Source: Dyella nitratireducens (GTDB lineage Bacteria; Pseudomonadota; Gammaproteobacteria; Xanthomonadales; Rhodanobacteraceae). Taken from it: a stretch of 64,000 nucleotides of DNA. The position numbers and the translations under genes were made by a program. Positions 1-18,435 of this stretch are shown piece after piece. The notes under the pieces are model-generated. The model searched no databases. It saw nothing but the letters and a program-made list of their open reading frames with translations, and had not been told where the DNA came from. The stretch spans positions 140,519 to 204,518 of the forward strand of contig NZ_BMJA01000002.1 in the NCBI RefSeq assembly GCF_014642835.1. Direction: 5' to 3'. The stretch's first letter is position 1; each line of letters begins with the position of its first letter.

Positions 1-1899
1 GCCGTAGACCTCGTTCAACGGCGCGACAGCTTGCTTGCCCTGGCTGGTAGTGGCTTCAAAGCGCAGTTCGTCTGTGGAGACGATGCGCATCCAATCCGTT
101 GCATTCGGAGTTGCTGCGGTGATGCGCGGCGCGGCTTGTGCGGGCGGCTCCGGATCCGGACCGGTGCCGTAGCCACCGTATTGCACGGCATGCGTCAGGC
201 CCTGGCCACCCAGCCGCGCCGCAAGCACCAACGGTCCGTAAAGCATGGCGATCTGGCTGTCATCGCCCGGTAGCGGCATGGTGTGAAGTTGCATCGGCAG
301 GTCGAGTTCGATCCGATCGCCATCGCGCCATTCGCGCCGCACGCTCAGGTAGCTGCCGGGCGATGCAAAGGTATCCAGCGTTTCGCCATTGATGCGTACG
401 TTTGCGTTGGAGCCGATCCAGGATGGAATGCGCAGATGCAGCGCGAACGGCTTCGATTGTGCAAGCTTGAGCTGCAGGCTGGTGCGCGGCTCGCGCGGGA
501 AGCGCGTGTCCTGGCGCAAGGTGACACCTTGCTGTGTCCAATTCAGCTCGGAAGGCACGAACAGGTTGACGTAGAGATCGCCACCGTCGTGGAAATAGAT
601 GTTGTCGTTGAAGCGCGCGAACTCTTCCGCTCCGGTGCCGGTGCAGCACCAGAATGAATCGGTAGGCGAGTTGTAGAACTTGTTGGCGCCCGCGCGCAGC
701 GCGTAGAAATAGAGCTTCAACCCGTCCGCATCCTGGGTGCCGAGGCGCGCGTTGTAGAGCGTGCGCTCGTAGTAATCGAAGGCGCGCGGGTCGCCGTTCC
801 AGGTGTAAACGTGGCGCGTGAGCTTCAACAAGTTATAGGCCACGCAGGATTCGGCGGTGTACAAACCGAGTTGACCCTTCAGGTCGCCAGGGCCGGTCTG
901 CCAGAACTCACCATTGCTGGAGCCGCCCGTGGCGTAGGTGCGGTGTTGCGTGACGGTTTCCCAGAAAAACTCGGCAACGCGCCGGTAGCGTGGTTCGCCG
1001 GTCAGTTCGTAGCGCCGTGCCGCACCGATGATCTTGGGAACTTGCGTGTTGGCGTGCAGCCCCTGCAATTGATCGCTGTAGGAGGCCAATGGATCGAACA
1101 GCGACGCCTGGTCGAAACGGTGCGCAGCATCGCGATAGCGCTCGTTGCCGGTGATCGCGTACAGCTCATACATGGAATCGTTGATGCCGCCATATTCCGT
1201 CTTGAGCATGTGCGCCATGTTGGCATCGGAAAAACCGTTGGCCCAGTGGACTATCCAGTCGCCCATGCCGGTGGCCACTTGCAGCGCTTGCTGATTGCCG
1301 GCAAGGCGATACATGTCGAGCATGCCGGCCTGGATCTTGTGGAGGGTGTAGAACGGCGCCCACACTTTTTGTCCGCTGCTCAGCCGATCGAAGAAGCTTT
1401 CAGGGAAAGCGCTGAGATAACCGTTCGGGCGTTGGCATGCGGCAAGCGCCTTCACCAGCTCGTCGCCGCGCGCCTTGAGCGCTTCGTCGCCGTTACTGGC
1501 ATAAGCCAATGCGCATGCAGACAGATAATGGCCGCCGGTGAAATGGCCGCGCAATTCGCAATCGGGTTTTTCCCAACCGCCCAGTGGCGTGGCGTGCGAG
1601 GCCAGGCCGGCTTGCAAGCGGAAGGTATGCACCAGCCGGTCGGTGGGCAGGCTTTGCAGGTAGCGGCTGTTGATGGCTGCTGCCCGCGTGAAATCGCTGT
1701 CCAGCAAGCGCACCTGGTTCAGCGCAAACGGCTGCACGCAGCGTACCGGCTGGTCGGGTATGGCCTGCTTGGATGTTGCTGCTGTTCCGGCCGGTTCGGC
1801 CAGATCGAAGGCGCGCAACCGCGGTGCTGCCATCGTTACGGCAAGGGCTGTTGCTGCGCCCTTGAGAAATCGCCTGCGTTGATCTGCCCCGTGTTGCAT
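1..1899 (-). CDS. Tat-exported GH127 (DUF1680) beta-L-arabinofuranosidase, 3' end cut by window
   Basis: The reading frame stays open from an ATG at 1899 to the window edge (633 codons seen; the stop lies outside). The N-terminus has a twin-arginine motif (RRRFLK, residues 9-14) and a hydrophobic stretch ending near AAPRLRA, so periplasmic export is expected. The body matches the GH127/DUF1680 family: an ESC motif near residues 350-352 and adjacent cysteines at 418-419 within FWCCTGTG. In the founding enzyme HypBA1 the equivalent Glu, Cys, Cys and Cys bind zinc, and the first Cys of the pair is the nucleophile. HypBA1 removes L-arabinofuranose from beta-1,2-arabinobiose attached to hydroxyproline. 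The gene sits 163 bp downstream of another exported glycosidase-like gene on the same strand, beyond a hydroxyproline catabolic operon. The family call is firm; the exact substrate is inferred. Confidence 0.88.
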   Translation of the reverse strand, partial: MQHGADQRRRFLKGAATALAVTMAAPRLRAFDLAEPAGTAATSKQAIPDQPVRCVQPFALNQVRLLDSDFTRAAAINSRYLQSLPTDRLVHTFRLQAGLASHATPLGGWEKPDCELRGHFTGGHYLSACALAYASNGDEALKARGDELVKALAACQRPNGYLSAFPESFFDRLSSGQKVWAPFYTLHKIQAGMLDMYRLAGNQQALQVATGMGDWIVHWANGFSDANMAHMLKTEYGGINDSMYELYAITGNERYRDAAHRFDQASLFDPLASYSDQLQGLHANTQVPKIIGAARRYELTGEPRYRRVAEFFWETVTQHRTYATGGSSNGEFWQTGPGDLKGQLGLYTAESCVAYNLLKLTRHVYTWNGDPRAFDYYERTLYNARLGTQDADGLKLYFYALRAGANKFYNSPTDSFWCCTGTGAEEFARFNDNIYFHDGGDLYVNLFVPSELNWTQQGVTLRQDTRFPREPRTSLQLKLAQSKPFALHLRIPSWIGSNANVRINGETLDTFASPGSYLSVRREWRDGDRIELDLPMQLHTMPLPGDDSQIAMLYGPLVLAARLGGQGLTHAVQYGGYGTGPDPEPPAQAAPRITAATPNATDWMRIVSTDELRFEATTSQGKQAVAPLNEVYG

Positions 1900-2062
1900 G
1901 CCGCTCCCCACACACTGGTAACCGCTAAGTCACGAATTGGTCGTACTAGTAATATTAAATCGTGATGGGCTTCATCCTGCCGCAGCAATCAACAAGACGT
2001 CTTGTGCCAATTGCTGCCTCTCCATGCGGAATTCTGCATAAACACGCCGTTATGGCGCTTAT

Positions 2063-4414
2063 TCAGGTGAAGCGCGCGTGCACGTGAATGCGCTGGCCGG
2101 GGCTGCCTTGCAGTTTCACGTCATCGCCATGCCAATCGGCAGCGGTGCCGTTCACCTGCACGGCGGCTAAAGCCTTGCCTGCCGGAACGCGCAAGCTCAA
2201 CCATAAGGTGGGAACGCCGCGGTCGGGCAGCGTCACGATGCCTTCGATCGTACTCTCGTCCGTGGCCCGCAGTTGAAACCCGGTACGGCCCCAGCGCGTG
2301 GGCGCGTCGCTTATGCGGATCGATTGCCCGCTGCCGATCCAGGCGCGTGGAATGGCACGCCCCAGATACAGGGTTTCGCCGGCACTGTCTTCGAACACCA
2401 GCATCCAGCGCAGCAGCAGCGGAATGGTGAGTTGCGCCGGCATGCAAAACAGCGGCATGCCGCCGGTGATATCCGACACTTCGCCGGCCGTCCAGCTTCC
2501 CGGCGTGTGCGCGTGATAGCGATGGGCGTATAGGAACAGCAGAAATTCGTCGATGCGGTTCAGGCGCAACAGCTGTTGCGCATAACCGTAGGAAATGAAA
2601 CCGAGAATGTCGCGGCTGTCCGGCGCTACCGGTGCGACGTTGGCCACGACGCCGATGCTGGTGGCGCCGTGGCCGCGCAGGCAGTCGATGACGAGGTGGC
2701 TGAGATCGCCGGGTAACACATCTGCTTGCAGCAGCTCGGAATAGGCGCGATGCGGCCATTGCTGTTCGCTCGGTTTCTCCTTGGCCAGCGATTCGCGGAA
2801 AGTGAGCGTTACGCCTGGCAACGGTCCGACGTAGGGTGGTTTGAGGTCATGGCGCACGTTGGCGCGCAGCGTGCGTTCCACTTGATGCGCAAGCAGGTCT
2901 GCACGCTGTTGCCACTGTGTTGGCTGGGAACTCCCGCCATGCGTTATCGCTTGCCACACTTGCGCGATATCGCGCAGGCCGCGCGCTGCCATGGCGCTGT
3001 TGGCGTAATAAGGTTTCCACCACAACGTGGGATCGGGAAACAGGCAGGCGTCCGATTCGTTCCAGCCATGAATCAAGCCGTAGCCTGGATCGCTGCTGGA
3101 TAATTGCAGGCTGGCATCATGTAATGCCAGCAATAGCTGCACCGTGGCTTCGATCTTGGCGCGATGCTTGTCGAGCAGCGCGCCATCACCGGTGTAGTGG
3201 AAATAACGCGCCAGCAGCGAGAGCGTTAGTCCAAATTGTCCGGTCTCCGCGCCGCGCATGTTGATCATGCCGTCCGGCTGCACGAAGTCGGTGAAGTATT
3301 CGTCCAACACCGCAGCGGCCTGTGCGAAACGTCCCCACTCCAGGTTTGCATAGAGCGAACTGGTGAAGGTGTCCTGGAAGCCGTCGTATTCGTTGCCGTA
3401 GTAGTCGCGATCCACCGCGCCATATTTCGGGTACGTACCATCCGGACGCACGATCAACTCGCGCGCGAAGGCGTGATGCACCATGTCGGTCCAACCAGCG
3501 GCAGGCACTTCAGCGATGCAGAGGTCAGCAAGTTCGGCCTGCCAATAATCGTGAAAGCGCAGCAGCGCAGCGTAGAACGCGGATGCATCCGGCGGCATCC
3601 GCCGCGGCGGGTAACTGGGATAGCTGTGGCCGTAGCTCACGTGAACCATCTTGCCGCGCTCGATGCGTGCGGTGCGATGCCAGGTCTGCACGACGAAGCG
3701 GTCCGTGGCGTCCACATCGGCAAACACCAGTACGTCGTACCAGCTTTGCTCATCGATGGGGATCACTTTGTGCACGGCCGGCAGCCAACCGCCAAGCAAG
3801 CCTTCGCGACGACGCGCGACGCGTTTTGGATCGTGCAAATCCGCAAACACCTGGTCGGTGTGATACGTGCGCGTGCTGCCGGAGGTGTAGACCGGCATCG
3901 TATCCGCGCATTGGCGCGTGCCCACAAAGGTGGTCCACGGCAGGCGGCCGTAGTAGTTCTCCGGATTGAGCTGGGCGGCGACTGGCGGCGCCGCACGCCG
4001 CACTTCGTCTTCCGCCGGTTCGCCGTGGCGCAACAAGTGATCGGCCAGCAAGTCTGCTTCGGCGAGCGCGATATCGGCGAGTTTCATGCCGAAGTAGGGC
4101 GTATCTGTTTCGGCGTAAACCGGTTCGGTGCGCTTGCCAAGCACGCATGCGTGATGGCCGTCGCTTAGTGTCAGTGTGCCATGCGGATCGCGCAAATCTT
4201 CGAATACCTGCCATGGTTGGCCGGCTGACGTGAAGCTTGTCTGCAGCGTGTGCCCTTGCAGCGACAAACCTTGCACAGGCACGCGTACCGGAGGAAGGGT
4301 GGCGCGTCGGGCTGGTGAAGCAGCCGTTGGTGTGGATTGGCTACGGCTTACGCCGTTCAGTCCGACCGCGGCGCCAGTGGCAGCCAGGCCCTGCAGAAAA
4401 CGTCGACGATCCAC
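2063..4414 (-). CDS. Tat-exported six-hairpin glycosidase-like protein, family not assigned
   Basis: This 783-residue protein starts at GTG 4414, with GAAGGGG about 10 bases upstream. It carries a Tat signal (DRRRFLQG, then AATGAAVGL). The first third, residues about 50-300, looks beta-rich. The middle, about residues 310-640, has the spaced aromatic and acidic helices of an (alpha/alpha)6 barrel, for example YGNEYDGFQDTF, ARYFHYTGDG and HGWNESDACLFPDP. A beta-rich C-terminal domain ends the protein. This layout is typical of six-hairpin glycosidases (GH78, GH95, GH127-like), but I cannot place it in a numbered family. Conserved acids in the NEYDGFQD and WNESD segments are candidate catalytic residues. 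It lies between an amino-acid permease and a GH127 enzyme, so it probably acts on a plant glycan. Glycosidase function is inferred, not proven. Confidence 0.72.
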   Translation of the reverse strand: MDRRRFLQGLAATGAAVGLNGVSRSQSTPTAASPARRATLPPVRVPVQGLSLQGHTLQTSFTSAGQPWQVFEDLRDPHGTLTLSDGHHACVLGKRTEPVYAETDTPYFGMKLADIALAEADLLADHLLRHGEPAEDEVRRAAPPVAAQLNPENYYGRLPWTTFVGTRQCADTMPVYTSGSTRTYHTDQVFADLHDPKRVARRREGLLGGWLPAVHKVIPIDEQSWYDVLVFADVDATDRFVVQTWHRTARIERGKMVHVSYGHSYPSYPPRRMPPDASAFYAALLRFHDYWQAELADLCIAEVPAAGWTDMVHHAFARELIVRPDGTYPKYGAVDRDYYGNEYDGFQDTFTSSLYANLEWGRFAQAAAVLDEYFTDFVQPDGMINMRGAETGQFGLTLSLLARYFHYTGDGALLDKHRAKIEATVQLLLALHDASLQLSSSDPGYGLIHGWNESDACLFPDPTLWWKPYYANSAMAARGLRDIAQVWQAITHGGSSQPTQWQQRADLLAHQVERTLRANVRHDLKPPYVGPLPGVTLTFRESLAKEKPSEQQWPHRAYSELLQADVLPGDLSHLVIDCLRGHGATSIGVVANVAPVAPDSRDILGFISYGYAQQLLRLNRIDEFLLFLYAHRYHAHTPGSWTAGEVSDITGGMPLFCMPAQLTIPLLLRWMLVFEDSAGETLYLGRAIPRAWIGSGQSIRISDAPTRWGRTGFQLRATDESTIEGIVTLPDRGVPTLWLSLRVPAGKALAAVQVNGTAADWHGDDVKLQGSPGQRIHVHARFT

Positions 4415-4474
4415 GCGATCAGCCCCTTCGAGAACGGTGATGCGTTGTCCCGTTCACTACAAAGAAATGGAAAT

Positions 4475-4543
4475 GGCCCGTGCACGTCTTGGGGAGGAGG
4501 CACCGGCGTGTTCGACCGGTGGAGGTGGTGCCGTGCACGGGCC
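4475..4543. repeat. Nested inverted repeat in the leader of the glycosidase-like gene
   Basis: Arms 4475-4486 and 4532-4543 are perfect 12-bp inverted repeats (GGCCCGTGCACG). Inside them CACCGG 4501-4506 pairs with CCGGTG 4516-4521. It lies 61-129 bases upstream of the GTG start at 4414 and could be an operator or a leader hairpin. It has no adjacent T-run, so a simple terminator is unlikely. The rest of the 4415-4777 spacer holds only the REP pair listed next. Confidence 0.6.
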
Positions 4544-4665
4544 TGTTGGCATGGTGCGACTGCCTTCTAGGGCGGTCTTGGCGATATGCCGCGGGTTGGA
4601 TGCGGATTTGGGCATAGTTGCCTTATGCCGCGAGGTTGCCAGGAAATCTGCCGTGTCTTCTGATT

Positions 4666-4744
4666 CGTCGCCCCGGCGAAAGCCGGGACCTGGCGATTTG
4701 CGGCTTTTTCAAGTCGCTGGGCCCCGGCTTTCGCCGGGGCGACG
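4666..4744. repeat. Family B REP-like pair (GC-rich variant)
   Basis: Two opposed copies of CGTCGCCCCGGCGAAAGCCG are present: 4666-4691, and 4713-4744 in reverse orientation. They form an inverted pair in the spacer between the permease and glycosidase genes. A single further copy of this variant lies at 8486-8517. Confidence 0.75.
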
Positions 4745-4777
4745 GATGAGGCCAGAACATAGGGTTATTACTTGCAT

Positions 4778-6214
4778 TTAGGATGCGGATTCGCGCACGG
4801 CCGCCACACCATCGCTGGATGCACTCAAGCGACTGTGATGCCGTCCATATCCGACATACACCAGCAGCCCAAGCAACAGCCATATCCCAAAACGCCAGTA
4901 CGTGATGTTGGGCAGGCCCCAAATCAGCCAGCAGGAAAAGCCCACGCCAATGATGGGTACCAGCGGTACCAGCGGCGTGCGGAAGGGGCGTTCCAATTCA
5001 GGACTGCGCCAACGCAGAACAGCTACCGCCGCGCAGATCACGATGAAGGCGCTGAGCACGCCGATGTTGACCAGCTTGGCGAGCTCATCCAGTGGAAACA
5101 GGCCGGAGGCGATCGCGGTCACGGCGCCGAGCAGCAGCGTGGTCCGGTGTGGTGTATGCCAGCGCGGATGCACCTTGGCGAACCATCCCGGCAGCAGACC
5201 GTCGCGCGACAACGCGAACCAGATGCGCGCACCGGCGAGCAGGTTGGCGAAGATCACGCTGGTGATGCCGCAGATCGATGCGAGCGAGATCGCCACCATC
5301 ACTTGCGGCAGGCCGATGGCGCTGAACGCGCTCGCCACCGGTGCGGGCGTATCCAGCGTGGTGTAAGGCACGATGCCGGTGAGTACCAGGCAGATGGCGA
5401 AATAGAGCAACATCGCAATGCCCAATGACAGCAGCACAGCGCGTGGCAGGTCGCGTTGCGGATGGCGTGATTCTTCCGCGGCGGTGGTGAGCATGTCGTA
5501 GCCGAACACCGCGAAGAACACCACCGCGGCACCGGTAACGACGCCGTGCACGCCAAATGGCATGAACGGGTGCCAGCGCTCCGGCTTCACATACGCAGCG
5601 CCTGCGATCACGATGCCAGCGGCGGCAGCGATCTTGATCGCCACGATGGCGGTGTTGAAACGCGCGCCCCATTGCATGCGCATCGCCAGCAAGGCGGTGA
5701 TGGCGAGCGACACGACCACGGCAGGAAGATTGAACAAGCGGCCCGGTGCGCTGCCGTAAGCGCCTTGCGCCCACACCGGTAGTGGAATGCCTGCCGCATC
5801 CAGCAGGGCTTGTACGTAGCCGGACCAGCCCACTGCGACGACGGCGGCGATCAAGGCGTATTCCAGCAATAGATCCCAGCCGATGACCCAGCCGGCGAAT
5901 TCGCCAAGCACCGCATAGCCATACGTGTATGCACTGCCCGATACGGGAATGAGTCCGGAGAATTCCGCATAACACAGTGCCGCTGCACCGCTGGCGATGC
6001 CTGCCAGCAGGAACGACAGCACCACGGCAGGTCCTGCCTGTGTCGCGGCTACGGTACCGGTCAACACGAAGATGCCGACACCGATGATGCCGCCGAGGCC
6101 GATCGCGGTGAGTTGCCACAAACCGAGCACGCGACGCAGCCCGCTGCGTTCGCCGGTTTCCTGTTGCATGGCCGCGACGGATTTGCGGCGGGTCATGTCG
6201 GTGATCAGGCTCAT
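4778..6214 (-). CDS. APC-family amino-acid permease
   Basis: This inner-membrane amino-acid/proton symporter of the APC superfamily has 478 residues and about 12 to 14 hydrophobic segments. The first helix carries the signature GLGGIIGVGIFVLTG (about residues 40-54), the unwound substrate-binding segment of APC transporters. Other family marks are PVSGSAYTYGY (about 97-107), EYALIAA and the FAVFGYDMLTTAAEE segment in TM6. The sequence most resembles the CAT/YfnA-type permeases. ATG 6214 has AGGGGAG about 8 bases upstream. Its position downstream of hydroxyproline catabolic genes and an exported peptidase suggests it imports hydroxyproline or related amino acids; this substrate is inferred from context only. 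Confidence 0.88.
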   Translation of the reverse strand: MSLITDMTRRKSVAAMQQETGERSGLRRVLGLWQLTAIGLGGIIGVGIFVLTGTVAATQAGPAVVLSFLLAGIASGAAALCYAEFSGLIPVSGSAYTYGYAVLGEFAGWVIGWDLLLEYALIAAVVAVGWSGYVQALLDAAGIPLPVWAQGAYGSAPGRLFNLPAVVVSLAITALLAMRMQWGARFNTAIVAIKIAAAAGIVIAGAAYVKPERWHPFMPFGVHGVVTGAAVVFFAVFGYDMLTTAAEESRHPQRDLPRAVLLSLGIAMLLYFAICLVLTGIVPYTTLDTPAPVASAFSAIGLPQVMVAISLASICGITSVIFANLLAGARIWFALSRDGLLPGWFAKVHPRWHTPHRTTLLLGAVTAIASGLFPLDELAKLVNIGVLSAFIVICAAVAVLRWRSPELERPFRTPLVPLVPIIGVGFSCWLIWGLPNITYWRFGIWLLLGLLVYVGYGRHHSRLSASSDGVAAVRESAS

Positions 6215-6300
6215 GTCAGGCTCCCCTTAAGGAATATCGAATACGCGAACTGCACTGATCTTGTGGCACGTTTCTTCAGAGCGCCTCGCAGTACCTCACC

Positions 6301-6466
6301 GTCATTCCGGCGAAAGCCGGAATCCAGTCTAAATAGGCGTCCGAGGGACACAACACCTTTTATGTTGAGTGCTGCGCACGGCGTATTCGAACTGGATTCC
6401 TCGCTCCTCAAAGCCGAGCACATCCATGTGCTCTCCCCGCGTACCGGCTTTCGCCGGAATGACGAC
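6301..6466. repeat. Family B REP-like inverted pair
   Basis: GTCATTCCGGCGAAAGCCGG begins at 6301 and its inverted copy lies at 6446-6466, about 120 bp apart. The 6215-6535 spacer otherwise shows no gene. The segment between the arms, 6327-6445, is unique in this window. Confidence 0.75.
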
Positions 6467-6535
6467 GGGGCAAGATTTCGGTTTCCCGAAACAGCTAGCT
6501 TCCGCCAATAGTGTTTTGAGAAAAGGGTGTTCCCC

Positions 6536-8338
6536 TCACTGCTGTGCATACGGCGACTTCCCACCATCCGCAATGAACTGATCGATCCGCTTGTGCAACA
6601 CAGGCAGTGGCACCGACCCCGTCAACAGCACCGCGTCATGGAACGCACGGATATCGAATTTATCTCCCAGTGCCTTTTCTGCCCGCGCACGATCTTCGCG
6701 TATCTCCAGTTCGCCGAGGTAATACGACAAAGCCTGCCCTGGCCACGCAATATAGCGATCCACCTCGGTGTCGATTTCATGCTCGGCCAACGCGGTGTTC
6801 TGGCGCAGATAGTCACGCGCCTGTTCGCGTGTCCAGTGCATGTGATGCAAGCCGGTATCCACCACCAGCCGCGCCGCGCGCCAAGCCTGGTAGCTCAGGT
6901 AACCGAACTGATCGTACGGCGTCTTGTACATGCCCATTTCCTGGCCCAGGTATTCGCAATACAAGGCCCAGCCTTCGCCATAGGCGGAGATGTAGGTGTA
7001 GCGGCGGAAGTCGGGCAGGCCCTTTAATTCGGCGGCCAGAGGCATCTGCAACGCATGGCCGGGCGAGGATTCGTGCAAGGTAAGCGCGGGCAGCGAATAG
7101 AGTGGGCGCGAGGGCAGATCGTAAGTGTTGACCAGATAAATGCCAGGGCCGCCGCGGCCGCCGGTATAGATCGGCGCGAGATCCGCAGGCACCGGTTTGA
7201 TCGTGAAGCGCTCACGCGGCAAGCGGCCGATGTAATTGCCCACCTTGCCGTCGACTTCCTTGGCAATCCAGGCGGCATCCTTCAGCAACTCATCCGGTGT
7301 CTTCGCATAGAAGCGCGGATCGGTACGCAGAAAGTGCAGGAAATCGGCAAAGCTGCCCTTGAAGCCGGTCTGCTTGATGATGGCCAGCATCTGTTGATGG
7401 ATGCTGGCCATTTCCTTCAAGCCCAGTGCATGGATCGCATCGGGGCTCATGTCCAGCGTGGTGAATTCCTGAATCCGCGACTGATAGAAAGCCTTGCCGT
7501 CAGGCTGGTCTTCAGCGGCCAGGGTGGTGCGTGCATGGGGGAGGTAGTCGTTGCGCATGAATGCCAGCAGCTTCGTATAGGCAGGAAGCACATCCTGCTG
7601 GATCTCTGCCAGCGCCTGTTTGCGCAAGTCGTCTTGCTGTGCGGCGGGGATGGTCGCCGGCATCTGCTTGAACGGCGTGTAGAACAGATTTTGTTCGCCC
7701 TGTGCGTCGGCGACGGCGGTGATCGATGAATCCTGCCCTTGCAGGATCACTTTCGGTTGCGTGAAACCGCGCGCCAATCCCAGGCGCATATTGGCGATCT
7801 GTTCGTCGAAGTAACGCGGAATGTCGTACAGCTTGCCGAGATAGTTCTGGTAATCCTTCGGGGTCACGAAGTTGCCGCGCGCACTGAAGCCCAGGTCACT
7901 CCAGAACGCCGAGTCGGCGTTGAACGGCATCTGCCAGGTCTGGAACTTCTGGTTCGCCAACAGTGTTTGGATCTGCTGCTTGTAGACCTCGTAGTTGAGC
8001 TGGTCTTCCTGGCTGAGTTTTGTCTCGGGTATGGCGTTAAGTTGAGTTAGTACGTCGGCCCAATAATGTTCGCGCATCGCCTGGGTGGTGGCGTCTACCT
8101 TTGGCAGATATGCAGCAGCCTTTCCGTTGCTGTCCTCGTCATCGCCGCCGGCGAATTGTTGTTGGCGCCATTGCCATTCGCGGGTGTAGAGGGCGTGGAA
8201 GGCTTGGGTGGCGTCTTGCTTGGGTGGATCTGCCTGTGCCGTGACGGATATCGCCGCGATGCTGCAGGCGATCACAAGTGTCTTTACTCGCGATTTCCAG
8301 GCGTGCAATGAAAGTATGTGTTCCCTTACGGCCGTCAT
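6536..8338 (-). CDS. Exported DUF885 family protein (HExxPGH peptidase-like)
   Basis: About 600 residues with a hydrophobic signal segment (VKTLVIACSIAAISVTAQA) and then a long helical DUF885 body. The DUF885 metal-site motif HESSPGH occurs about two thirds along, and a following GEGWALYCEYLG segment supplies a further Glu, as in HExxH-type peptidases. DUF885 proteins are poorly characterised, and some are annotated as dipeptidases. The frame is open upstream to 8464, but those extra codons read through a family B repeat (AVIPAKA, WIPAFAGMT) and are almost certainly not coding. Even the ATG at 8338 lies inside a repeat arm, and TTG 8308 just before the signal segment is an alternative. Between the hydroxyproline operon and a permease, it may release amino acids from peptides in the periplasm; that is inference. 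Confidence 0.85.
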   Translation of the reverse strand: MTAVREHILSLHAWKSRVKTLVIACSIAAISVTAQADPPKQDATQAFHALYTREWQWRQQQFAGGDDEDSNGKAAAYLPKVDATTQAMREHYWADVLTQLNAIPETKLSQEDQLNYEVYKQQIQTLLANQKFQTWQMPFNADSAFWSDLGFSARGNFVTPKDYQNYLGKLYDIPRYFDEQIANMRLGLARGFTQPKVILQGQDSSITAVADAQGEQNLFYTPFKQMPATIPAAQQDDLRKQALAEIQQDVLPAYTKLLAFMRNDYLPHARTTLAAEDQPDGKAFYQSRIQEFTTLDMSPDAIHALGLKEMASIHQQMLAIIKQTGFKGSFADFLHFLRTDPRFYAKTPDELLKDAAWIAKEVDGKVGNYIGRLPRERFTIKPVPADLAPIYTGGRGGPGIYLVNTYDLPSRPLYSLPALTLHESSPGHALQMPLAAELKGLPDFRRYTYISAYGEGWALYCEYLGQEMGMYKTPYDQFGYLSYQAWRAARLVVDTGLHHMHWTREQARDYLRQNTALAEHEIDTEVDRYIAWPGQALSYYLGELEIREDRARAEKALGDKFDIRAFHDAVLLTGSVPLPVLHKRIDQFIADGGKSPYAQQ

Positions 8339-8517
8339 TCCCGCGAAAGCGGGAATCCATTTTCGGGGATGTATCAAAGCAAGATGGATTGACCAGCATT
8401 CGCTGTTGAAAAGCGCCTCCGCTTTCGCGGGAATGACGGCCATGGAGGTAACTTTCATCATCACGAATGTCCTCAGGTACGGAAAGTCGCTGGGCCCCGG
8501 CGTTCGCCGGGGCGACG
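8334..8517. repeat. Family B composite repeat cluster
   Basis: Arms GTCATTCCCGCGAAAGCGGG (8334-8360) and GCTTTCGCGGGAATGAC (8421-8438) bracket a spacer. The 32-base spacer segment 8384-8415 recurs identically at 29364-29395, so arms and spacer move as one composite element. A GC-rich single copy follows at 8486-8517. Confidence 0.75.
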
Positions 8518-8527
8518 ATGGATAAAA

Positions 8528-10114
8528 CTATCCCTGGCCGATATCTCCATCCGTCCATCGCCCATCCACCAAGCGCTGCACGCCACCGGGATTGCGATTA
8601 CGCAACTCCACCGGCAATAGCGCCTCCGGCACATTGTCGTAACTGTGCAACGCACTGAAGCGCCGAATCGAAGCGGGCATGCCCACCGAGGTGAAACCAG
8701 GATTGCTGGTGCTCGGATACGGGCCGCCATGATTCATCGCGGCACTCACCGCAACACCGGTCGGCATTTTGTTGGCGATCAATCGGCCGACTTTGTTGCG
8801 CAGGATCGGCGCGAGCGCCAGCCATGCATCGTCATCGCTGCCATCCGCAGGGCGATAAATAGTGCCGGTGAGATTGCCTTCGAAGGAGGCCGCGATGCGT
8901 TGCATGGCCGGCAGGTCCGCCGCGCGAACGATCAGGCTGACGGGGCCAAACGCTTCCGCCTGCAAGCCTTCTGCATGCGCGAGGAAGGCATCGCCATCCA
9001 CATTGAGCAAAGTCGGCTGGAAGCGATAGCCTTCGCCCACGCTGCCACCTGTGAGCACTTGCGCACCCGCTGCACGCAAACCGTCCACCGCGTGCAGAAG
9101 GTTTTGCTGCACGCCGCGCGAGAACAACACCTTGGGTTCGGCTTGCGCAAACAGCTGCGTGGCGGCGACGACGAATGCGTCGCCTTGCTCGCCCTCGGGC
9201 ACGATTACGATGCCGGGATTGGTGCAGAACTGGCCGCTGCCCATCGTGCAGGATGCGAAGAACTCCTGCGCCAGCGCTTCGCCTCGTTCGGCCAGTACGC
9301 CCGGCAGCAGGAATACCGGATTGACGCTGGAGAGCTCCGCATAGATCGGCACGCCGGCCTTGTCCGCGGCAGCCTTGAGTGCAAGACCGCCCGTGCGGCT
9401 GCCGGTAAAGCCGATCGCACCCAGGCGCGCATCGCCCGCCCAGGCAAGGCCAAGCGCATTGTCGAAGTGATAAAGCATCTGCACCGCAGCGGCCGGCAAG
9501 CCTGCTTCGAGCAAGGCTGCATGTGCGAGTTGCGCCAGGCGTTGGCTGGTGGCCGGATGGGACGGATGCGCCTTGGCGATGACCGGATTGCGTGCCGCGA
9601 TCGCGGAGGCGAAATCGCTGCCGGCGATGGCGTTGAACGCGAACGGGAAATTGTTCGGTCCGAACACCAGCACGGGCTTGTTGAGCGGCGCGCGATGGGC
9701 GCGCAGACCGGCTTGCGTGTCGATCACCGGATCGGTCCATGCGTAATGACGCACGGCTTGTGCAGCGAGGCGCAACTGGTTGCTGGTGCGTGGCAGCTCC
9801 ACCGAACGCAGGCGAGGCTCGACCGGCAATGCGGTTTCCGCATGCGCCAATGCCACCAGGCAATCGCCATCGGCATCGATGGCGGCGGCGTAGCGTTCCA
9901 GAAAGTCGGCGATGCGCGAGGGAGATATTGTGCTCAATGCATCGGCTGCTTGCAGGGCAGCTTGCATTGCCGCTTCGATGTCTGCCTTGCCGCTGATGGG
10001 AAACGCAGGGCCGATCGCTTCGGCGCGTGCGGGATCTTCCGCACGAAAACTGCCGTGCGCATCTTGCGATGCGCACCAGCGTCCGCCGATCAGGACGTGT
10101 TCGAGCGTGCTCAT
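8528..10114 (-). CDS. lhpG: Alpha-ketoglutarate semialdehyde dehydrogenase (2,5-dioxovalerate dehydrogenase)
   Basis: This cytoplasmic NAD(P)-dependent aldehyde dehydrogenase has 528 residues. It oxidises alpha-ketoglutarate semialdehyde to 2-oxoglutarate, the last step of hydroxyproline breakdown. Motifs seen are the nucleotide-binding segment VFGPNNFPFAFN (about residues 150-161), GFTGSRTGG, the general-base Glu in YAELSSVNPVF and the nucleophile Cys in GSGQFCTNPG. The NPVF/FCTNPG pattern is typical of the KGSADH branch. The ATG lies 1 base past the stop of the deaminase gene, so it is the last gene of the hydroxyproline operon. Sugar-acid pathways also use this enzyme, but the neighbours point to hydroxyproline. 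Confidence 0.92.
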   Translation of the reverse strand: MSTLEHVLIGGRWCASQDAHGSFRAEDPARAEAIGPAFPISGKADIEAAMQAALQAADALSTISPSRIADFLERYAAAIDADGDCLVALAHAETALPVEPRLRSVELPRTSNQLRLAAQAVRHYAWTDPVIDTQAGLRAHRAPLNKPVLVFGPNNFPFAFNAIAGSDFASAIAARNPVIAKAHPSHPATSQRLAQLAHAALLEAGLPAAAVQMLYHFDNALGLAWAGDARLGAIGFTGSRTGGLALKAAADKAGVPIYAELSSVNPVFLLPGVLAERGEALAQEFFASCTMGSGQFCTNPGIVIVPEGEQGDAFVVAATQLFAQAEPKVLFSRGVQQNLLHAVDGLRAAGAQVLTGGSVGEGYRFQPTLLNVDGDAFLAHAEGLQAEAFGPVSLIVRAADLPAMQRIAASFEGNLTGTIYRPADGSDDDAWLALAPILRNKVGRLIANKMPTGVAVSAAMNHGGPYPSTSNPGFTSVGMPASIRRFSALHSYDNVPEALLPVELRNRNPGGVQRLVDGRWTDGDIGQG

Positions 10115-10115
10115 G

Positions 10116-11021
10116 TCAGACGGCCGGTTTGGTCGCGATGGCGTGATCGATGATCTTCAAGGCCATCTCGCGTTCGGCGCCTGCCACCGGCAAGCGCGGT
10201 GCGCGTACGCGCTCGCTGCCCATGCCGACTTTTTCCTGCACCAATTTGATCAGCTGCACGAAGGTCGGCACGGTGTCCAGGCGCAGCAGCGGCAGGAACC
10301 ACTTGTACAGCGCTTCGGCCGCCTTCGGACCACCGTCGCGGGCGAGTTCGTACAGCTTCACCGATTCCTTCGGATACGCATTCACCAGGCCGGCGATCCA
10401 GCCGACGGCGCCCATCGCCACGCCTTCGACGATGGCATCGTCCATGCCCACCAGCAGTTGCAGGCGATCGCCGAGCAAGGCGCGAATACCGGCGAAGCGG
10501 CGCACGTCGGCGGAGGATTCCTTCACCGCTTGCAGGTTGGAAAATTCACCGGCGAGTTCGGCGATTTGCGCGGGCGTGAAATCAGTCTTGTAGGCGACTG
10601 GGTTGTTGTAGAGCATGCAAGGCAGATCGGTGGCGGCGATCACCGCGCGCACGTGCGCGCCCATTTCGCGCCAATCCGTGGAATACACGTACGGCGGCAG
10701 CACCATCAGGCCGCCACAGCCGAGCGCTTTCGCTTCCTTGGCCAGCTTCACCGCTTCGCGTGTGGAAAGCGAAGCAATGCCGGGAATCACCGGTGCGCGG
10801 CCTTCCAGTGCTTTCACCAGCGTGCGCAGGATGTCGAGCTTTTCCTCGAAGCTCAGCGTGGCCGCTTCACCCAGCGAACCCAGCGGCACGATGCCACGGC
10901 AGCCGGCATCGATCAGTTGTTTGGCGTGGGTAGCAAGAAACGCGTGATCGACCTGGTCATCGGCGGTGAACGGCGTGGTGATGGCCGGCAAAACGCCATG
11001 CCACATGCTTGCGTTGCTCAT
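10116..11021 (-). CDS. lhpC: Delta1-pyrroline-4-hydroxy-2-carboxylate deaminase (DapA superfamily)
   Basis: This 301-residue class I aldolase-fold protein of the dihydrodipicolinate synthase superfamily converts pyrroline-4-hydroxy-2-carboxylate to alpha-ketoglutarate semialdehyde with release of ammonia. Visible marks are the substrate loop PLGSLGEAATLS (about residues 46-57), YNNPVAYKTD, and the Schiff-base lysine in LQAVKESSADVRR. The GSLGE in place of the GTTGE of true DapA argues against lysine biosynthesis. The start ATG overlaps the stop of the FAD subunit gene by 4 bases (ATGA, 11018-11021). The functional call rests mainly on operon context with the epimerase and dehydrogenase. Confidence 0.9.
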   Translation of the reverse strand: MSNASMWHGVLPAITTPFTADDQVDHAFLATHAKQLIDAGCRGIVPLGSLGEAATLSFEEKLDILRTLVKALEGRAPVIPGIASLSTREAVKLAKEAKALGCGGLMVLPPYVYSTDWREMGAHVRAVIAATDLPCMLYNNPVAYKTDFTPAQIAELAGEFSNLQAVKESSADVRRFAGIRALLGDRLQLLVGMDDAIVEGVAMGAVGWIAGLVNAYPKESVKLYELARDGGPKAAEALYKWFLPLLRLDTVPTFVQLIKLVQEKVGMGSERVRAPRLPVAGAEREMALKIIDHAIATKPAV

Positions 11022-12307
11022 GAGAAGGATCCTTCAGTTTCGGAGGAAGAAGCGAGTTCACCCAGCGATGCAAGCCGGGCAGGGAAAAGAGGCGGGCGTT
11101 GCCCGCTACGTGGAAAGAGGCCGAGTTCGGCCAAGGCGGTGCCGCATATGCGGCCCTGGCAGGCGCCCATGCCGCAGCGCGTGGCGAGCTTGGCGCTGCG
11201 TGCATCGTCGTAGTCTTTGAGTGCCTGCAGCGGTACGTCTTCGCAGCGGCAGATCAGGGTGTCTGGCTGGGCCAGATCGTGGATGTAGGGATCGAGCTTG
11301 AAGTGCTCGCGCAACGCGGCGGCGAACGTGCGTGCGTGGCGCTGTTGCCGAAGCAGGGATGCGTCGATGTCGGCACCCGCAGCCACCAAGCCTGCGATGC
11401 GGCCTTCCAGCCACGCGCAATCGCGTCCACCGATGCCGCAAAGTTCACCGGCTGCGTAGATGTTGGTGACGCTCGTGCGCTGTGAAGTGTCGACGTCGAC
11501 GCAGGGGTGGGCGCCTTCTTGTTTCATCGCGCAACCAAGCATCTGCGCGAGTTCCACGTTGGGCACGAGGCCATAGCCGATGGCGAGCTGGTCGCACTCG
11601 ATGCGTTGCGTACCATGCGGCCCGTCTATCTCGATCCGTTCCAGTGCGTGCTCGCCGAGCGCACGCGTCACGATGCTGCCGCAGTGATAGGGAATACCTG
11701 CCAGCTGACTGCGCAGCACGGCCGCTTGCAGCGCCTTGCCGGGCCAACGCCACAGCTTGCGTGCAAAACCATGCACGGCGGCGTCGCTCGCTTGCTCGTA
11801 AATACCCAGCACATGGGCGCCGTGCCGCTTCGCCGTGACTGCAGCGGCCAACAACAACGGGCCGCTCCCAGCGATCACGACACGGCGTCCGTCGAGCGGC
11901 CAGCCTTGCTTGACCAGCGCCTGCAATCCGCCTGCACCTGTTATGCCAGGCAAGGTCCAACCCGGAAACGGCAGCAGCAGTTCGCGTGCGCCGGTGGCAA
12001 GAATCAAGCTGCCATACGTGATGCGCCATCCTTCACGCTCGTTCTGCAGCAATAACGCGTTCTGTTCGGCAGCGATCACCTGCGTCTGCGGCATCCATGT
12101 CGCATGGGGATGATTCACCACCTCAGTGATGACACGCGCTGCTTGCCGCGGCCAGCCGTATCGGATGTCTTTGCGCCATACCTGGCCACCGGCCGCGCTT
12201 TGTGCATCGAGCCAGGCTACGCGTGCGCCCTGTGCGAGTGCAGCTTCTGCGGCAGCCAAACCTGCCGGCCCGGCGCCCACGATGACGATGTCGTAGCGCT
12301 TAGCCAT
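11018..12307 (-). CDS. Hydroxyproline dehydrogenase FAD/NAD(P)-type subunit with C-terminal BFD-like 2Fe-2S domain
   Basis: This 429-residue flavoprotein has an N-terminal dinucleotide fold (VGAGPAGLAAAEAAL, residues 10-24) and a second GSGPLLLAAA fold near residue 140. Its C-terminal domain has cysteines in ICRCEDV and GMGACQGRICG, which match the 2Fe-2S site of opine-oxidase/BFD-type subunits. Such proteins form heteromers with a small 2Fe-2S protein and a DadA-like subunit in D-hydroxyproline dehydrogenase. Here those two subunits are encoded immediately upstream with overlapping ends (8 bases with the small subunit). It probably passes electrons from D-hydroxyproline oxidation to the respiratory chain. 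Assignment is by family and context. Confidence 0.88.
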   Translation of the reverse strand: MAKRYDIVIVGAGPAGLAAAEAALAQGARVAWLDAQSAAGGQVWRKDIRYGWPRQAARVITEVVNHPHATWMPQTQVIAAEQNALLLQNEREGWRITYGSLILATGARELLLPFPGWTLPGITGAGGLQALVKQGWPLDGRRVVIAGSGPLLLAAAVTAKRHGAHVLGIYEQASDAAVHGFARKLWRWPGKALQAAVLRSQLAGIPYHCGSIVTRALGEHALERIEIDGPHGTQRIECDQLAIGYGLVPNVELAQMLGCAMKQEGAHPCVDVDTSQRTSVTNIYAAGELCGIGGRDCAWLEGRIAGLVAAGADIDASLLRQQRHARTFAAALREHFKLDPYIHDLAQPDTLICRCEDVPLQALKDYDDARSAKLATRCGMGACQGRICGTALAELGLFPRSGQRPPLFPARLASLGELASSSETEGSFS

Positions 12308-12542
12308 CGGTTACCACCTGCATGCCGTCACGCACAGACACCATGCACGAGCGTTGTTGTGCAATGCCATCGATCTGCACGCGGCATTCGAAACAGATGC
12401 CCATGCCGCAAAACGGTGCGCGCATGTGTCCGCTCACGGAGCGGCGAAACGGGCGTTGCGATTGCGCAATCGCTGCCGCCACGCTGATGCCCGCGGGTAC
12501 ATCGAGCGCGTGCCCATCAATATTGATCCGCACCTGCGTCAT
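12300..12542 (-). CDS. Small 2Fe-2S subunit of hydroxyproline dehydrogenase
   Basis: This 80-residue protein resembles the plant-type ferredoxin-like small subunits of heteromeric amino-acid and opine dehydrogenases. The cluster ligands are visible as CGMGICFEC (three Cys) plus a later Cys in QRSCMVSV. The start at 12542 is chosen because its ATGA overlaps the stop of the upstream dehydrogenase by 4 bases, as at two other joints of this operon. The frame is open further upstream, but that part lies inside the neighbouring gene. It bridges electrons between the two flavoprotein subunits. Confidence 0.87.
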   Translation of the reverse strand: MTQVRINIDGHALDVPAGISVAAAIAQSQRPFRRSVSGHMRAPFCGMGICFECRVQIDGIAQQRSCMVSVRDGMQVVTDG

Positions 12543-13642
12543 ACGCATGCCACCGCGCGTGCAGGATCGTAGGGGCGCGCATCGATCGCGGCGGCGCGTC
12601 CCAGCCACTGGTCAATCACCAATCGCGCACTGCCCAGCGAAGTCGTGATGCCCAAGCCTTCGTGACCGGCGGCAACCCAAACGTTGGTGTGTTCGGGTAC
12701 GCGTCCCAGATACGGCAGGCCATCGGCACTGACCGGGCGAAAGCCGGTCCAGATGCGCAGTGCGTCGAGCTGACGGAGTGCCGGCAGATAACGGAATGTG
12801 CGTTCCAGCATGCGCTGGATCATCGGCATCGACACCTGCGATGTCTCGCTACCGTATTCGCGCGATGAGCCGATCAGAATCTGTCCGGTCGGCCGCGGCT
12901 GGACGTTGAAGGCGACGCTGCTGTCCGCATCACCGTGTGCGCTGTCTGCGTAACCGAGTTCCAGCAATTGATGATGGATGAGGCCGGGGTAGCGATCGGT
13001 GATCACCAGATGCCCTTTGCGCGCGCGCATCGGCAGCTGCGGCAAGAGTTCGGGCAAGGCACAGCCGGTGGCGACCAGCACGCTGCCGGCCAGCGAGGTT
13101 TGATCATCAAGCTGCACACCCTGTTGGGTGATGGCGGTAACGCGTTGTGAATAAAGCAGCGCACCGCGAGCACGCGCACGATCAAGCAGATGGCGCGCCA
13201 TGCCCGGCGGATACACCACCGCTTCGCGCGCCACGTGCATGCCGCCTGCCAGACCGCGTTGCAGGGCAGGTTCGAGGCGATAGAGCTGTTCGCCGTCGAT
13301 CAGCTCGGCTTGTACGCCGACCGCTGCAAGGCGCGCGATTTTCTCTGGAATATGCGCGTATTCGGCGTCGCTGCTCGCAACCCACAAGGTGCCGCAGCGG
13401 TTGTATTCAATCTGCGCGACCTGGGTGAAGTCTTCCCACAAGCCCAGCGAATAATTCGCCAGCGCGAGCTCGGCCGGGTCGTCGTCCATCGCCACCAGGT
13501 GCCCCATGGCCGCTGCGGTGGCGCCGCCGCCGATCGGGCCAGGCTCGACGATGGCGACACGAAGACCCTGCTGGCTGGCGTAGTCCGCACATGCGGTACC
13601 GATGATGCCCGCGCCGACGATGATCAGGTCGTAGCTCTTCAC
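12539..13642 (-). CDS. DadA-like FAD catalytic subunit of D-hydroxyproline dehydrogenase
   Basis: This 367-residue D-amino-acid oxidase-fold protein has an N-terminal FAD motif [17 protein letters not shown] (about residues 9-25), a [11 protein letters not shown] segment, and a C-terminal [14 protein letters not shown] loop typical of DAO-family flavin contact. It should oxidise cis-4-hydroxy-D-proline to pyrroline-4-hydroxy-2-carboxylate. The start is GTG 13642, which overlaps the epimerase stop as GTGA. An earlier in-frame GTG at 13660 is possible but would break the 4-base coupling pattern of the operon. It sits directly between the epimerase and the 2Fe-2S subunit. Confidence 0.9.
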
Positions 13643-14580
13643 GCCGTACCGATACCCCACGCCAGCGGATCATTGCCATCGTCGATCAGCAATTGGCCTC
13701 GCGCGGTGATGTGCGCACTGCCGGTGATACGAGGCAACACGCCGCGCATACCCGGCGTGTATTGCGCTTCGAACACGCTGTCGAGAATGCCGGCTTGCCG
13801 CCACACCTGACCCGGCGCCAGTTTGCCGTCGGCAGCCAGGCAGGCCACTTTGGCGCAGGTGCCGGTGCCGCAGGGCGAGCGGTCGTAGGCCAGGCCGGGA
13901 CACAGCACGAAATTGCGCGCGTCGGCATCGGCTTGCGTGGAAGGTCCGTTGAGTTCGATATGGTCGATCTCACCATCGGCGCCGCGAATGTTGGCGGCTT
14001 CCAGCGCCAGGCGAATCGCTTCGGTGTACACCGTCAAGGCGCGCTGGTTGGCGAGCGTGAGCGGCAGCGGGCTGTCGTTGGTGATGAAGAACCAGTTGCC
14101 GCCCCAGGCGACGTCGCCTTTCACCTTGCCGTAGCCCGGCACATCCAGCGCGACATCCTTCGCGTGGCGATAGGCTTCCACGTTGTCGATCGACACGCGG
14201 CCATCGGCATGCAGTTCGATGCCGACCATGCCGACCGGTGTTTCGAGCTTGTGTTTGCCGGGTGCGATGCGCCCGAGATGATGCAGCGTGCGGATCAGGC
14301 CGATGGTGCCGTGGCCGCACATGCCTAGATAACCCACGTTGTTGAAATAGATCACGCCGGCGCAAGCGGATGGATCGGTCGGCTGCAATAGCAGCGCACC
14401 GACCATCGTGTCTGATCCACGAGGCTCGCAGGCAATCGCCTGGCGCCAATGGTCGTAGCGGCCGCGGAATAATTCGCGGCGCTCAGCCAGCGAGCCGTTG
14501 CCGAGATCCGGAAAACCGGCGAGTACCACCCGGGTGGGTTCTCCGCCGGTGTGCGAGTCGATGAAGTCGATGGTGTGCAT
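13639..14580 (-). CDS. lhpA: 4-hydroxyproline 2-epimerase (proline racemase family)
   Basis: This 313-residue PLP-independent epimerase interconverts trans-4-hydroxy-L-proline and cis-4-hydroxy-D-proline. Both catalytic cysteines are present: Cys88 in MCGHGTIG and about Cys237 in [12 protein letters not shown], which together with GGNWFF are the epimerase signatures. The S-P-C-G-T-G-T form separates hydroxyproline epimerases from dehydratase members that carry Thr instead of the first Cys. It is the first gene of the operon, with ATG 14580 and a weak AAGATG ribosome site. All later steps to 2-oxoglutarate are encoded directly downstream. Confidence 0.94.
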
Positions 14581-14637
14581 GGGCGCATCTTGGTCGTTGT
14601 GCGCTGCGATCGTCTAGAAGAGCTTGCAGAGTGAGAA

Positions 14638-14651
14638 TGCGGAATTTCGCA
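14638..14651. promoter_or_regulatory. Possible operator dyad upstream of the hydroxyproline operon
   Basis: TGCGGAATTTCGCA is a near-perfect 14-bp dyad, with a related TGCGGA at 14655-14660. It is 58 bases upstream of the epimerase start. Short dyads like this are typical of IclR- or GntR-type regulators, but no regulator gene is in the window and the site is inferred from symmetry alone. Confidence 0.3.
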
Positions 14652-15142
14652 CAATGCGGATGTGCCAGGATGGCAACGAATGCTGTCCTCACGGGCATGT
14701 AATCGATCCAAGCGGAATAGGGCGGCGATGCCGGATTTGGTAGGTTGGGGGACGACGTTAGGGTTTGCATGCCAACTTGCGATGCGGTGTTTGGCCCCTC
14801 CTGCGCTTGGCCTTCGGCCCGATTTGTGCTTGTCTAGCGAACTCTGCCGGCCGGCTTAAAGGAAGACGACAGGTGCTGTTGCTGCAAGCGAATCCCTTTC
14901 CCCGCACGACCGAGTCACTTCCTGCCCGAGGAAGCGAGTCCGGCATACGCGGCGATCGGGGCACGAACCGGCAGGATGTGACGCAACGGGTCTACCTGTG
15001 CGCGCCGGCCGCGTTCCGCGCCAGGCGCCTTGGCGGTTCCGGCCACAAGATCGTGATCGCAGCTCCTTGCGGTTGGGCCAGGCAGCGGCGCATCGCGCAT
15101 CGTCATCAACGCGTTGCGGAGGGTCTTTCCGGACTGGGTACT

Positions 15143-18290: not shown

Positions 18291-18435
18291 AGTCCATGTC
18301 CCCCGGTAACAAGTGATGTCCGGCGCGGCTTGGCACTCCCCCGAGTGGCCGCGCCGGCCGAGTGTAGCCAAGTCGCCGGAACCGGGGCAGTGTCCTTCCG
18401 CTAAACTGCGCCCTTTGGGTTTTATCGGTTATCCC

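Follow-up and report, generated by a model that had tools for sequence, protein, structure and literature searches.

Introduction

Here we compare a gene cluster of Dyella nitratireducens (Rhodanobacteraceae) with described bacterial systems that act on hydroxyproline (Hyp)-containing proteins. The cluster occupies positions 1-14580 of a 64,000-nucleotide stretch of contig NZ_BMJA01000002.1 (assembly GCF_014642835.1; the whole stretch, hereafter the window, is G000:C2:140519-204518, the genome comprising 5.68 Mb on 14 contigs), and we consider it likely to be a co-regulated scavenging system for plant hydroxyproline-rich glycoproteins, of the extensin type and related kinds, with Hyp as the food. 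In Xanthomonas euvesicatoria the enzymes XeHypAA (GH43, 528 aa), XeHypBA2 (GH121) and XeHypBA1 (GH127/146, 791 aa) strip Ara4-Hyp step by step (PMC6085000; papers are cited by PMC number and their contents from excerpts). This bacterium cannot use L-arabinose, a triple deletion of the xehyp genes left its pathogenicity unchanged and a prolyl oligopeptidase gene adjoining xehypAA is broken; that paper asks why X. euvesicatoria has these enzymes and suggests that they are possibly useless now (PMC6085000). The words 'epimerase' and 'TonB' do not occur in it. In Bifidobacterium longum, hypBA1-hypBA2-hypAA likewise provide stepwise removal of Hyp arabino-oligosaccharides (PMC7263609), but B. longum uses the sugar (PMC6085000) and has an ABC importer, and the excerpts of PMC7263609 mention no Hyp catabolism. 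Shewanella-type HypR regulons, as predicted, unite Hyp catabolism, peptidases, a TonB-dependent transporter and the breakdown of Hyp-containing proteins in one regulon (PMC5343134). Neighbourhood work on the proline racemase superfamily (PMC4113996) treats the same Hyp pathway and reports the X. campestris epimerase structure 4JUU; it contains no word beginning 'glycosid'. A 4-hydroxyproline dipeptidase has been predicted in Xanthomonas (PMC6718126), as has extensin deglycosylation by GH127 in Latescibacteria (PMC4454575). Within the accessible parts of the open-access literature we found no paper tying Hyp catabolism to GH146 or GH121 glycosidases in one locus.

Like the X. euvesicatoria system, the Dyella locus has a GH146-type enzyme that would act on Hyp-linked arabinose, as the X. 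euvesicatoria enzyme does. Unlike the XeHyp set, and unlike the HypBA1/BA2/AA degradation system in general, it contains no match to GH121 or GH43, both of which are present in Xanthomonas loci, nor to dipeptidyl peptidase IV (DPP IV) (L003 and L004; the GH121/GH43 search covered the locus, not the rest of the genome). DPP IV and GH27 genes are present elsewhere in the genome. In X. phaseoli, XeHyp homologues share one locus with receptors, a Hyp operon, peptidases and the gene for a 783-aa protein that also occurs in the window. The HypR regulons differ in their collagen target and GntR-type HypR, the window's family having glycosidases and a PAS-AraC candidate regulator instead.

Results

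A hydroxyproline gene set beside two glycosidase-type genes

A preliminary description of this DNA had reported ten consecutive minus-strand genes and a complete gene set for converting trans-4-hydroxyproline to 2-oxoglutarate, and open reading frames (ORFs) together with Pfam and NCBIfam matches bear out both. From 14580 down the order is epimerase, DAO-type subunit, 2Fe-2S subunit, Pyr_redox subunit, DHDPS-family deaminase, aldehyde dehydrogenase, DUF885 protein, APC permease, 783-aa protein and, at the window start, a GH127/GH146-domain protein. The first gene of the Hyp operon (13639..14580, minus strand like all those that follow) encodes a trans-4-hydroxyproline 2-epimerase (NCBIfam NF010577, 447 bits against a cut-off of 442), and its closest PDB relative is 4juu (E 4e-150), which PMC4113996 places among the 4R-hydroxyproline 2-epimerases. 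By family and position the next three genes would encode the cis-4-hydroxy-D-proline oxidase: an FAD (DAO-type) subunit (12539..13660; Pfam DAO, 226 bits), a 2Fe-2S subunit (12300..12608; Pfam Fer2_4, 75 bits) with its true start probably near 12542-12548, and a pyridine-nucleotide-disulphide-type subunit, OXalpha (11018..12307; Pfam Pyr_redox_2, 106 bits). Judged by position, the DHDPS-family protein (10116..11021; Pfam DHDPS, 202 bits) is probably pyrroline-4-hydroxy-2-carboxylate deaminase and the aldehyde dehydrogenase (8528..10114; Pfam Aldedh, 144 bits; no NCBIfam equivalog cut-off reached) 2-oxoglutarate semialdehyde dehydrogenase. An epimerase adjoined in order by oxidase, deaminase and dehydrogenase families thus places the set, by sequence, in the Hyp-to-2-oxoglutarate pathway.

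The overlaps of 4 to 8 bases previously given for these genes stand at two junctions, OXalpha/deaminase (4 bases) and 2Fe-2S/OXalpha (8 bases). Deaminase and dehydrogenase are separated by a 1-base gap, and the other two junctions vary with the start codon chosen (overlaps of 22 and 70 bases between longest ORFs, 4 with internal starts). Intergenic gaps of 321, 363 and 151 bases precede the permease, 783-aa and GH146 genes, so that a single continuous operon is not demonstrated. The gap before the 783-aa gene (4415-4777) holds a GC-rich inverted repeat resembling repetitive extragenic palindromes, which may part transcription units.

Between the pathway genes and the glycosidase-type genes lie a DUF885 protein (6536..8464; Pfam DUF885, 524 bits), probably an exported peptidase, and an APC-type amino-acid permease (4778..6214; Pfam AA_permease_2, 170 bits), a probable Hyp importer. 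Inspection by eye of the DUF885 translation found an HESSPGH motif and a signal-like segment, and the real start is likely downstream of the longest-ORF start. Beyond the window the next gene, in the same direction, encodes a TonB-dependent receptor (about C2:137288-140365).

The gene cut by the window start (1..1911) continues to G000:C2:140465, giving a full length of about 654 aa, and encodes a predicted GH146-type beta-L-arabinofuranosidase with an RR signal-like start. Its earlier designation as a GH127 enzyme holds for the Pfam catalytic-domain family (Beta-AFase-like_GH127_cat, 390 bits) and fails at the finer level, where we replaced the GH127 HypBA1 label by GH146: among solved relatives 5opj, presumably BT0349 and the closest, scores 354 bits, 8k7x and 8k7y score 226-227 and the GH127 entries 53-101, and B. 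longum HypBA1 itself aligns along only a portion of the chain, at 53 bits. The structure 8qf8, labelled GH146, was grouped with 5opj as a relative. By these bit scores, without a tree, the enzyme is nearest to GH146 members and not to GH127. Its Glu-x-Cys and Cys-Cys residues, which we take to be the metal/catalytic residues, align with those of 5opj. Conservation of the corresponding residues has been described in a GH146 member (PMC10850190).

Linkage among Rhodanobacteraceae

The preliminary description had proposed a search for co-occurrence of the glycosidase and epimerase genes, and in relatives of Dyella adjacency proved to be the rule. Three window proteins were used as queries against 197 genomes of the same family, drawn evenly from a larger group; at E 1e-40 the epimerase was found in 70 genomes and the GH protein in 30, and at E 1e-10 the 783-aa protein in 15. 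In all 15 of the latter the epimerase gene lies 8.7 to 11.7 kb from the 783-aa gene, 14 times in the same orientation. Close GH146 proteins (at least 61% identity) occur in 23 of the 197 genomes and in 21 of these the gene is within 15 kb of the epimerase gene (7.4 to 14.1 kb; 20 on the same strand); of the remaining two genomes, one has the epimerase on another contig and one has none. Distant GH127/146 matches (at most 40% identity) are near the epimerase in 0 of 8 cases (two on another contig, five in genomes without epimerase, one at 722 kb). Over the 197 genomes the co-occurrence has a Fisher p of 1.8e-10, which is not corrected for kinship. Assignment of genus g14 to Xanthomonas was considered and dropped, since in an alignment its epimerase is clearly unlike that of X. 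campestris.

We then compared, by tblastn, 22 module loci (carrying GH146 and/or the 783-aa gene, L074 and L075 included) with 18 plain Hyp loci; the M24, GH27 and PAS-AraC queries came from L052, itself among the 22. The Hyp operon is present in 21 of the module loci, L055 being the exception. Neighbours enriched in module loci include the TonB-dependent receptor (18/22 against 1/18 plain loci), DUF885 (21/22 against 8/18) and GH27 (8/22 against 0/18), with M24 peptidase at 17/22 against 10/18 and the PAS-AraC gene at 20/22 against 15/18; Pfam confirmed all five families on representatives. The window's own locus has no M24 gene, and the best M24 match in its genome is only 36% identical. In L047 (G053) a 44-residue GH146 trace (5568-5699) stands behind an operator-like site at 5850, as if the gene had decayed.

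A common 17-bp site upstream of the epimerase and GH146 genes

Alignment of epimerase upstream regions from 26 sources (25 loci and the window) revealed one conserved 17-bp palindromic block, consensus TGTGCCGAATTCCGCAT, located about 55-75 bases upstream of the epimerase gene and usually between it and a divergent PAS-AraC gene. In the window, exact pattern matches lie on the minus strand upstream of the epimerase gene (14637..14653, TGTGCGAAATTCCGCAT) and of the GH146 gene (2024..2040, TATGCAGAATTCCGCAT), and a weaker site with 2 mismatches lies upstream of the 783-aa gene (4600..4616, minus strand, TATGCCCAAATCCGCAT). An independent matrix made from 16 sites of other genera, a fairer test than a pattern drawn with the window sites known, gives the GH146, epimerase and 783-aa sites, in that order, the three highest scores of the 64-kb window (29.7, 25.0 and 19.5 bits), the third just above the best of 20 shuffled windows (18.9 bits).

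With a matrix of all 26 sites and a threshold of 18 bits within 300 bases upstream, a level reached by 17 of 6686 random 300-bp windows, 17 of 20 GH146 genes in module loci proved to have a site, as did 4 of 14 783-aa genes of the family and the epimerase gene of every module (21/21) and plain (18/18) locus, the epimerase sites being partly the training set. DUF885 had such a site in 1 of 21 loci; none was found upstream of the receptor (0/18) or permease (0/21), nor of M24, GH27, deaminase, dehydrogenase or OXalpha genes.

The pattern TRTGCVRAATTCCGCAT was drawn up with the window sites already known and matches the 5.68-Mb genome exactly at 2 places, before the epimerase and GH146 genes. Allowing up to two mismatches gave 17 matches, or 14 places once the double counting of palindromes is removed, while the reversed control gave 6; among the 17 are the 783-aa upstream site and another immediately before the PAS-AraC gene of this genome. 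The latter gene, 77% identical to the relatives' gene divergent from the epimerase, is on another contig (G000:C3:507692-508387, L175; site at C3:508522).

Taken together, at least two and probably three units in the window's family appear, from their upstream sequences, to answer one regulator. The shared site predicts joint control of the epimerase and GH146 genes, where separate regulation had been named as a point that would tell against a common function. Position makes the PAS-AraC protein the most likely binder of the 17-bp operator; a literature search on this regulator found nothing, and one on DUF885 brought up no paper of evident use. A single-mismatch site at G000:C3:112065 (L177, position 6065) lies about 235 bases upstream of the gene for an exported-looking 467-aa protein, which could be a further regulon member, and the other single-mismatch place in the genome falls inside a coding ORF, presumably glmM-like.

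A candidate new glycoside hydrolase family

The gene at 2063..4414 (minus strand) encodes a 783-aa protein, predicted to be Tat-exported by a TAT signal that scores below the Pfam and above the NCBIfam cut-off. Besides this signal the protein matched no Pfam or NCBIfam family and, by sequence or profile, no PDB entry; novelty was judged against these three databases. An AlphaFold model built from an alignment of 57 sequences, each at least 51% identical to the window's, reached pLDDT 88.8 and pTM 0.90 (pLDDT 39 from the single sequence). Among the best 50 of 287 Foldseek rows the top match is 8iwf (E 4e-9, TMq 0.42), the highest TMq is 0.44 and identities are 8-14%; the (alpha/alpha)6 glycosidases among the matches listed comprise rhamnosidases, GH94-type phosphorylases, GH116, GH127, GH121 (6m5a, E 5e-5) and GH146 (8qf8, E 1.4e-4). 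E453, D455 and E645 are invariant in the 57-sequence alignment and are candidate catalytic residues. Going by the model, the protein looks like the founder of a new (alpha/alpha)6 glycoside hydrolase family, which agrees with its earlier description as an unassigned exported glycosidase-like protein.

Related loci in Xanthomonadaceae, Acidobacteria and others

A profile scan of a genome collection with the 783-aa alignment yielded 150 relatives, and the best 80 were kept: 9 from Rhodanobacteraceae, 36 from Xanthomonadaceae (one a Lysobacterales metagenome-assembled genome), 30 from Acidobacteria, 4 from Alphaproteobacteria and 1 from Shewanella. Genes around them were identified by codon-score calling and tblastn, as long antisense ORFs confound longest-ORF calling, and flank counts are lower bounds (10-kb flanks, several contigs ending early). 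For the 36 Xanthomonadaceae loci these counts are at least 34 for a receptor, at least 27 for DPP IV, at least 26 for a GH35/42-like gene, at least 24 for DUF885, at least 21 each for GH121 and GH43 and at least 15 for GH146. In each of the 8 Xanthomonadaceae genomes with an extended stretch, the same contig carries matches to all six Hyp gene types further upstream, and the 783-aa gene is preceded by an 18-bit operator site in 32 of 35 loci.

A stretch of about 43 kb in X. phaseoli CP094243 runs from the PAS-AraC and epimerase genes to GH146 and holds the Hyp genes, M24, two DUF885 genes, DPP IV, a GH35-like gene, a divergent S53 protease gene and the 783-aa gene, followed by receptor, GH121, GH43, a second DPP IV, a second receptor and GH146. 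Several matches are in pieces and some genes may be broken. A PIP-box-like sequence is present upstream of GH121 in X. phaseoli (L157:708-731), as it is in 30 of 200 shuffles of the locus; the match agrees with HrpX regulation of xehypBA2 as published. Four genes stand in a row in X. euvesicatoria L105, namely those for the 783-aa protein, a receptor, GH121 (PDB 6m5a, E 9e-212) and a 528-aa GH43; the contig begins at the 783-aa gene and the epimerase gene sits on a different contig. The X. arboricola L098 GH146 has the 791-aa length of XeHypBA1. From length, family and order, accessions not being compared, we infer that the L105 and L098 genes are the published xehyp genes.

Each of the 41 genomes behind the Xanthomonadaceae, alphaproteobacterial and Shewanella 783-aa loci encodes an epimerase-family protein (at 38-41% identity in the latter two groups), as do 22 of the 30 acidobacterial ones. 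Acidobacterial flanks hold DPP IV in at least 12 of 30 loci and GH146/127 likewise in at least 12 of 30. A DUF5695 protein of about 950 aa recurs near the 783-aa gene (L117, L121 and others; 11 of 30 acidobacterial loci). The epimerase-like gene of Stakelama L117 has a GntR-FCD gene in its vicinity, and in Shewanella fodinae L135 the 783-aa gene (61%) has no other module protein matched nearby.

Discussion

The gene content, conserved linkage, common upstream site and glycosidase-like predicted fold support the scavenging interpretation of the preliminary description, and from them we infer a substrate, transport steps, regulator-operator binding and induction by Hyp, as follows. The TonB receptor would bring glycopeptides into the periplasm, where exported GH146 and the putative 783-aa glycosidase would strip Hyp-linked arabinose and other sugars and so expose the Hyp backbone. 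Exported peptidases (DUF885 in the window; DUF885 and DPP IV in Xanthomonas) would release Hyp or short Hyp peptides for import by the permease, and the epimerase, three-subunit oxidase, deaminase and dehydrogenase would convert Hyp to 2-oxoglutarate, so that Hyp would supply both carbon and nitrogen. Through the 17-bp operator the PAS-AraC regulator, whose gene is divergent from that of the epimerase in most relatives, would most likely switch the parts on together. Hyp is favoured as the food because of the Hyp operon, the prolyl-type peptidases and the common upstream site in the window's family; a search for the L-arabinose isomerase C-terminal family gave no match in this genome, other arabinose routes lying outside its scope. 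Extensin, the target named earlier, fits and is too narrow, as other hydroxyproline-rich glycoproteins fit too.

We put somewhat better than even confidence in a broader, joint proposition: that the Xanthomonas enzymes for extensin arabinosides and the GH146 of the window are parts of a single Hyp-scavenging system, at least partly under one PAS-AraC-type switch, with sugar as waste and Hyp as nutrient, and that a new glycoside hydrolase family acting on glycans of Hyp-rich proteins, with the 783-aa protein as its founder, extends from Xanthomonadales to Acidobacteria and sphingomonads. Related bacteria may then keep sugar-stripping enzymes without using the sugar because the enzymes uncover Hyp; the common locus and, in the window's family, the common upstream site make this a testable answer to the question posed in PMC6085000. 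If true, the system would be a plant counterpart of the predicted Shewanella collagen-Hyp regulon and a soil route for turnover of a major wall protein, with an operator and candidates for its regulator and for a new glycosidase family now named.

Several points weigh against scavenging by a co-regulated system. The genomes counted are related, so the counts are not independent events. No close GH146 is present in 48 of the 70 epimerase genomes, which makes the glycosidase module an add-on to a commoner Hyp operon, and G093, a genome that gave no epimerase match, has a GH146 gene (L055) preceded by an operator-like site of 23.3 bits. Within the family, 3 of 20 GH146 genes and 10 of 14 783-aa genes have no 18-bit site. 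In Xanthomonadaceae no such site is directly upstream of GH146 (0/15), GH121 (0/21), GH35-like (0/25) or DPP IV genes (0/25 and 0/13) and one precedes the receptor in 1 of 34 loci; with no operator directly before GH146, GH121 and DPP IV, a single regulon is less sure there, and xehypBA2-AA is under HrpX control (PMC6085000). The operator was found at 0 of 30 acidobacterial 783-aa loci, where Hyp genes are in the flank of only 5 of 30 (a lower bound), and at 0 of 5 loci of Alphaproteobacteria with Shewanella. With GH121 and GH43 unmatched, removal of Ara3/Ara4 by the window's locus is unexplained unless the 783-aa enzyme does it. Finally, the window's GH146 is about 39% identical to the XeHypBA1-like protein, a likely orthologue of XeHypBA1, and BT0349, a GH146, is described as acting on arabinan-derived sugars (PMC10850190).

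It is possible, though on balance we think it unlikely, that the mechanism is as proposed and the target is mainly arabinogalactan-protein or another Hyp glycoprotein (lectins, arabinosylated peptides) rather than extensin. Relatives carry GH27 and GH35/42-like genes, and arabinogalactan-proteins also contain beta-Araf (PMC10850190), while the GH43, GH121 and GH146 enzymes of Xanthomonas match extensin Ara4-Hyp step by step; galactanases were not searched for.

A more doubtful alternative is that the Hyp genes are for free Hyp or peptides of the collagen type and the glycosidases target pectic arabinan or other arabinose-bearing wall polymers, their adjacency being unrelated. The epimerase genomes without close GH146 and the arabinan-derived substrates of BT0349 would fit this, as would the collagenases and prolidases in Shewanella HypR regulons (PMC5343134). 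Against it stand the linkage conserved across genera and the common operator, and the Xanthomonas locus holds homologues of enzymes shown to be active on Hyp-arabinosides. Chance adjacency of GH146 and Hyp genes we rejected on the conservation in several genera together with the operator. We likewise rejected plain collagen scavenging, as the glycosidases fit it poorly and no collagenase family was found among the 23 neighbour and window proteins scanned (not all neighbours).

That the glycosidases are plant-interaction factors with a secondary link to the Hyp genes is very improbable. In planta induction of the HrpX-regulated xehypBA2-AA (PMC6085000) and the PIP-box-like match of X. phaseoli would fit it; against it stand deletion mutants that kept pathogenicity (PMC6085000), a module found also in Dyella, Rhodanobacter and Luteibacter, and a 783-aa gene present in Acidobacteria.

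A generic promoter and terminator scan was uninformative, with 0 promoter-like sites and 12 terminators against 13.1 in shuffles. Outside the cluster, just past a divergent SLT-domain gene (14765-16084), an S9-family serine peptidase lacking any match to the DPP IV N-domain is encoded at 16329-18371 on the same strand.

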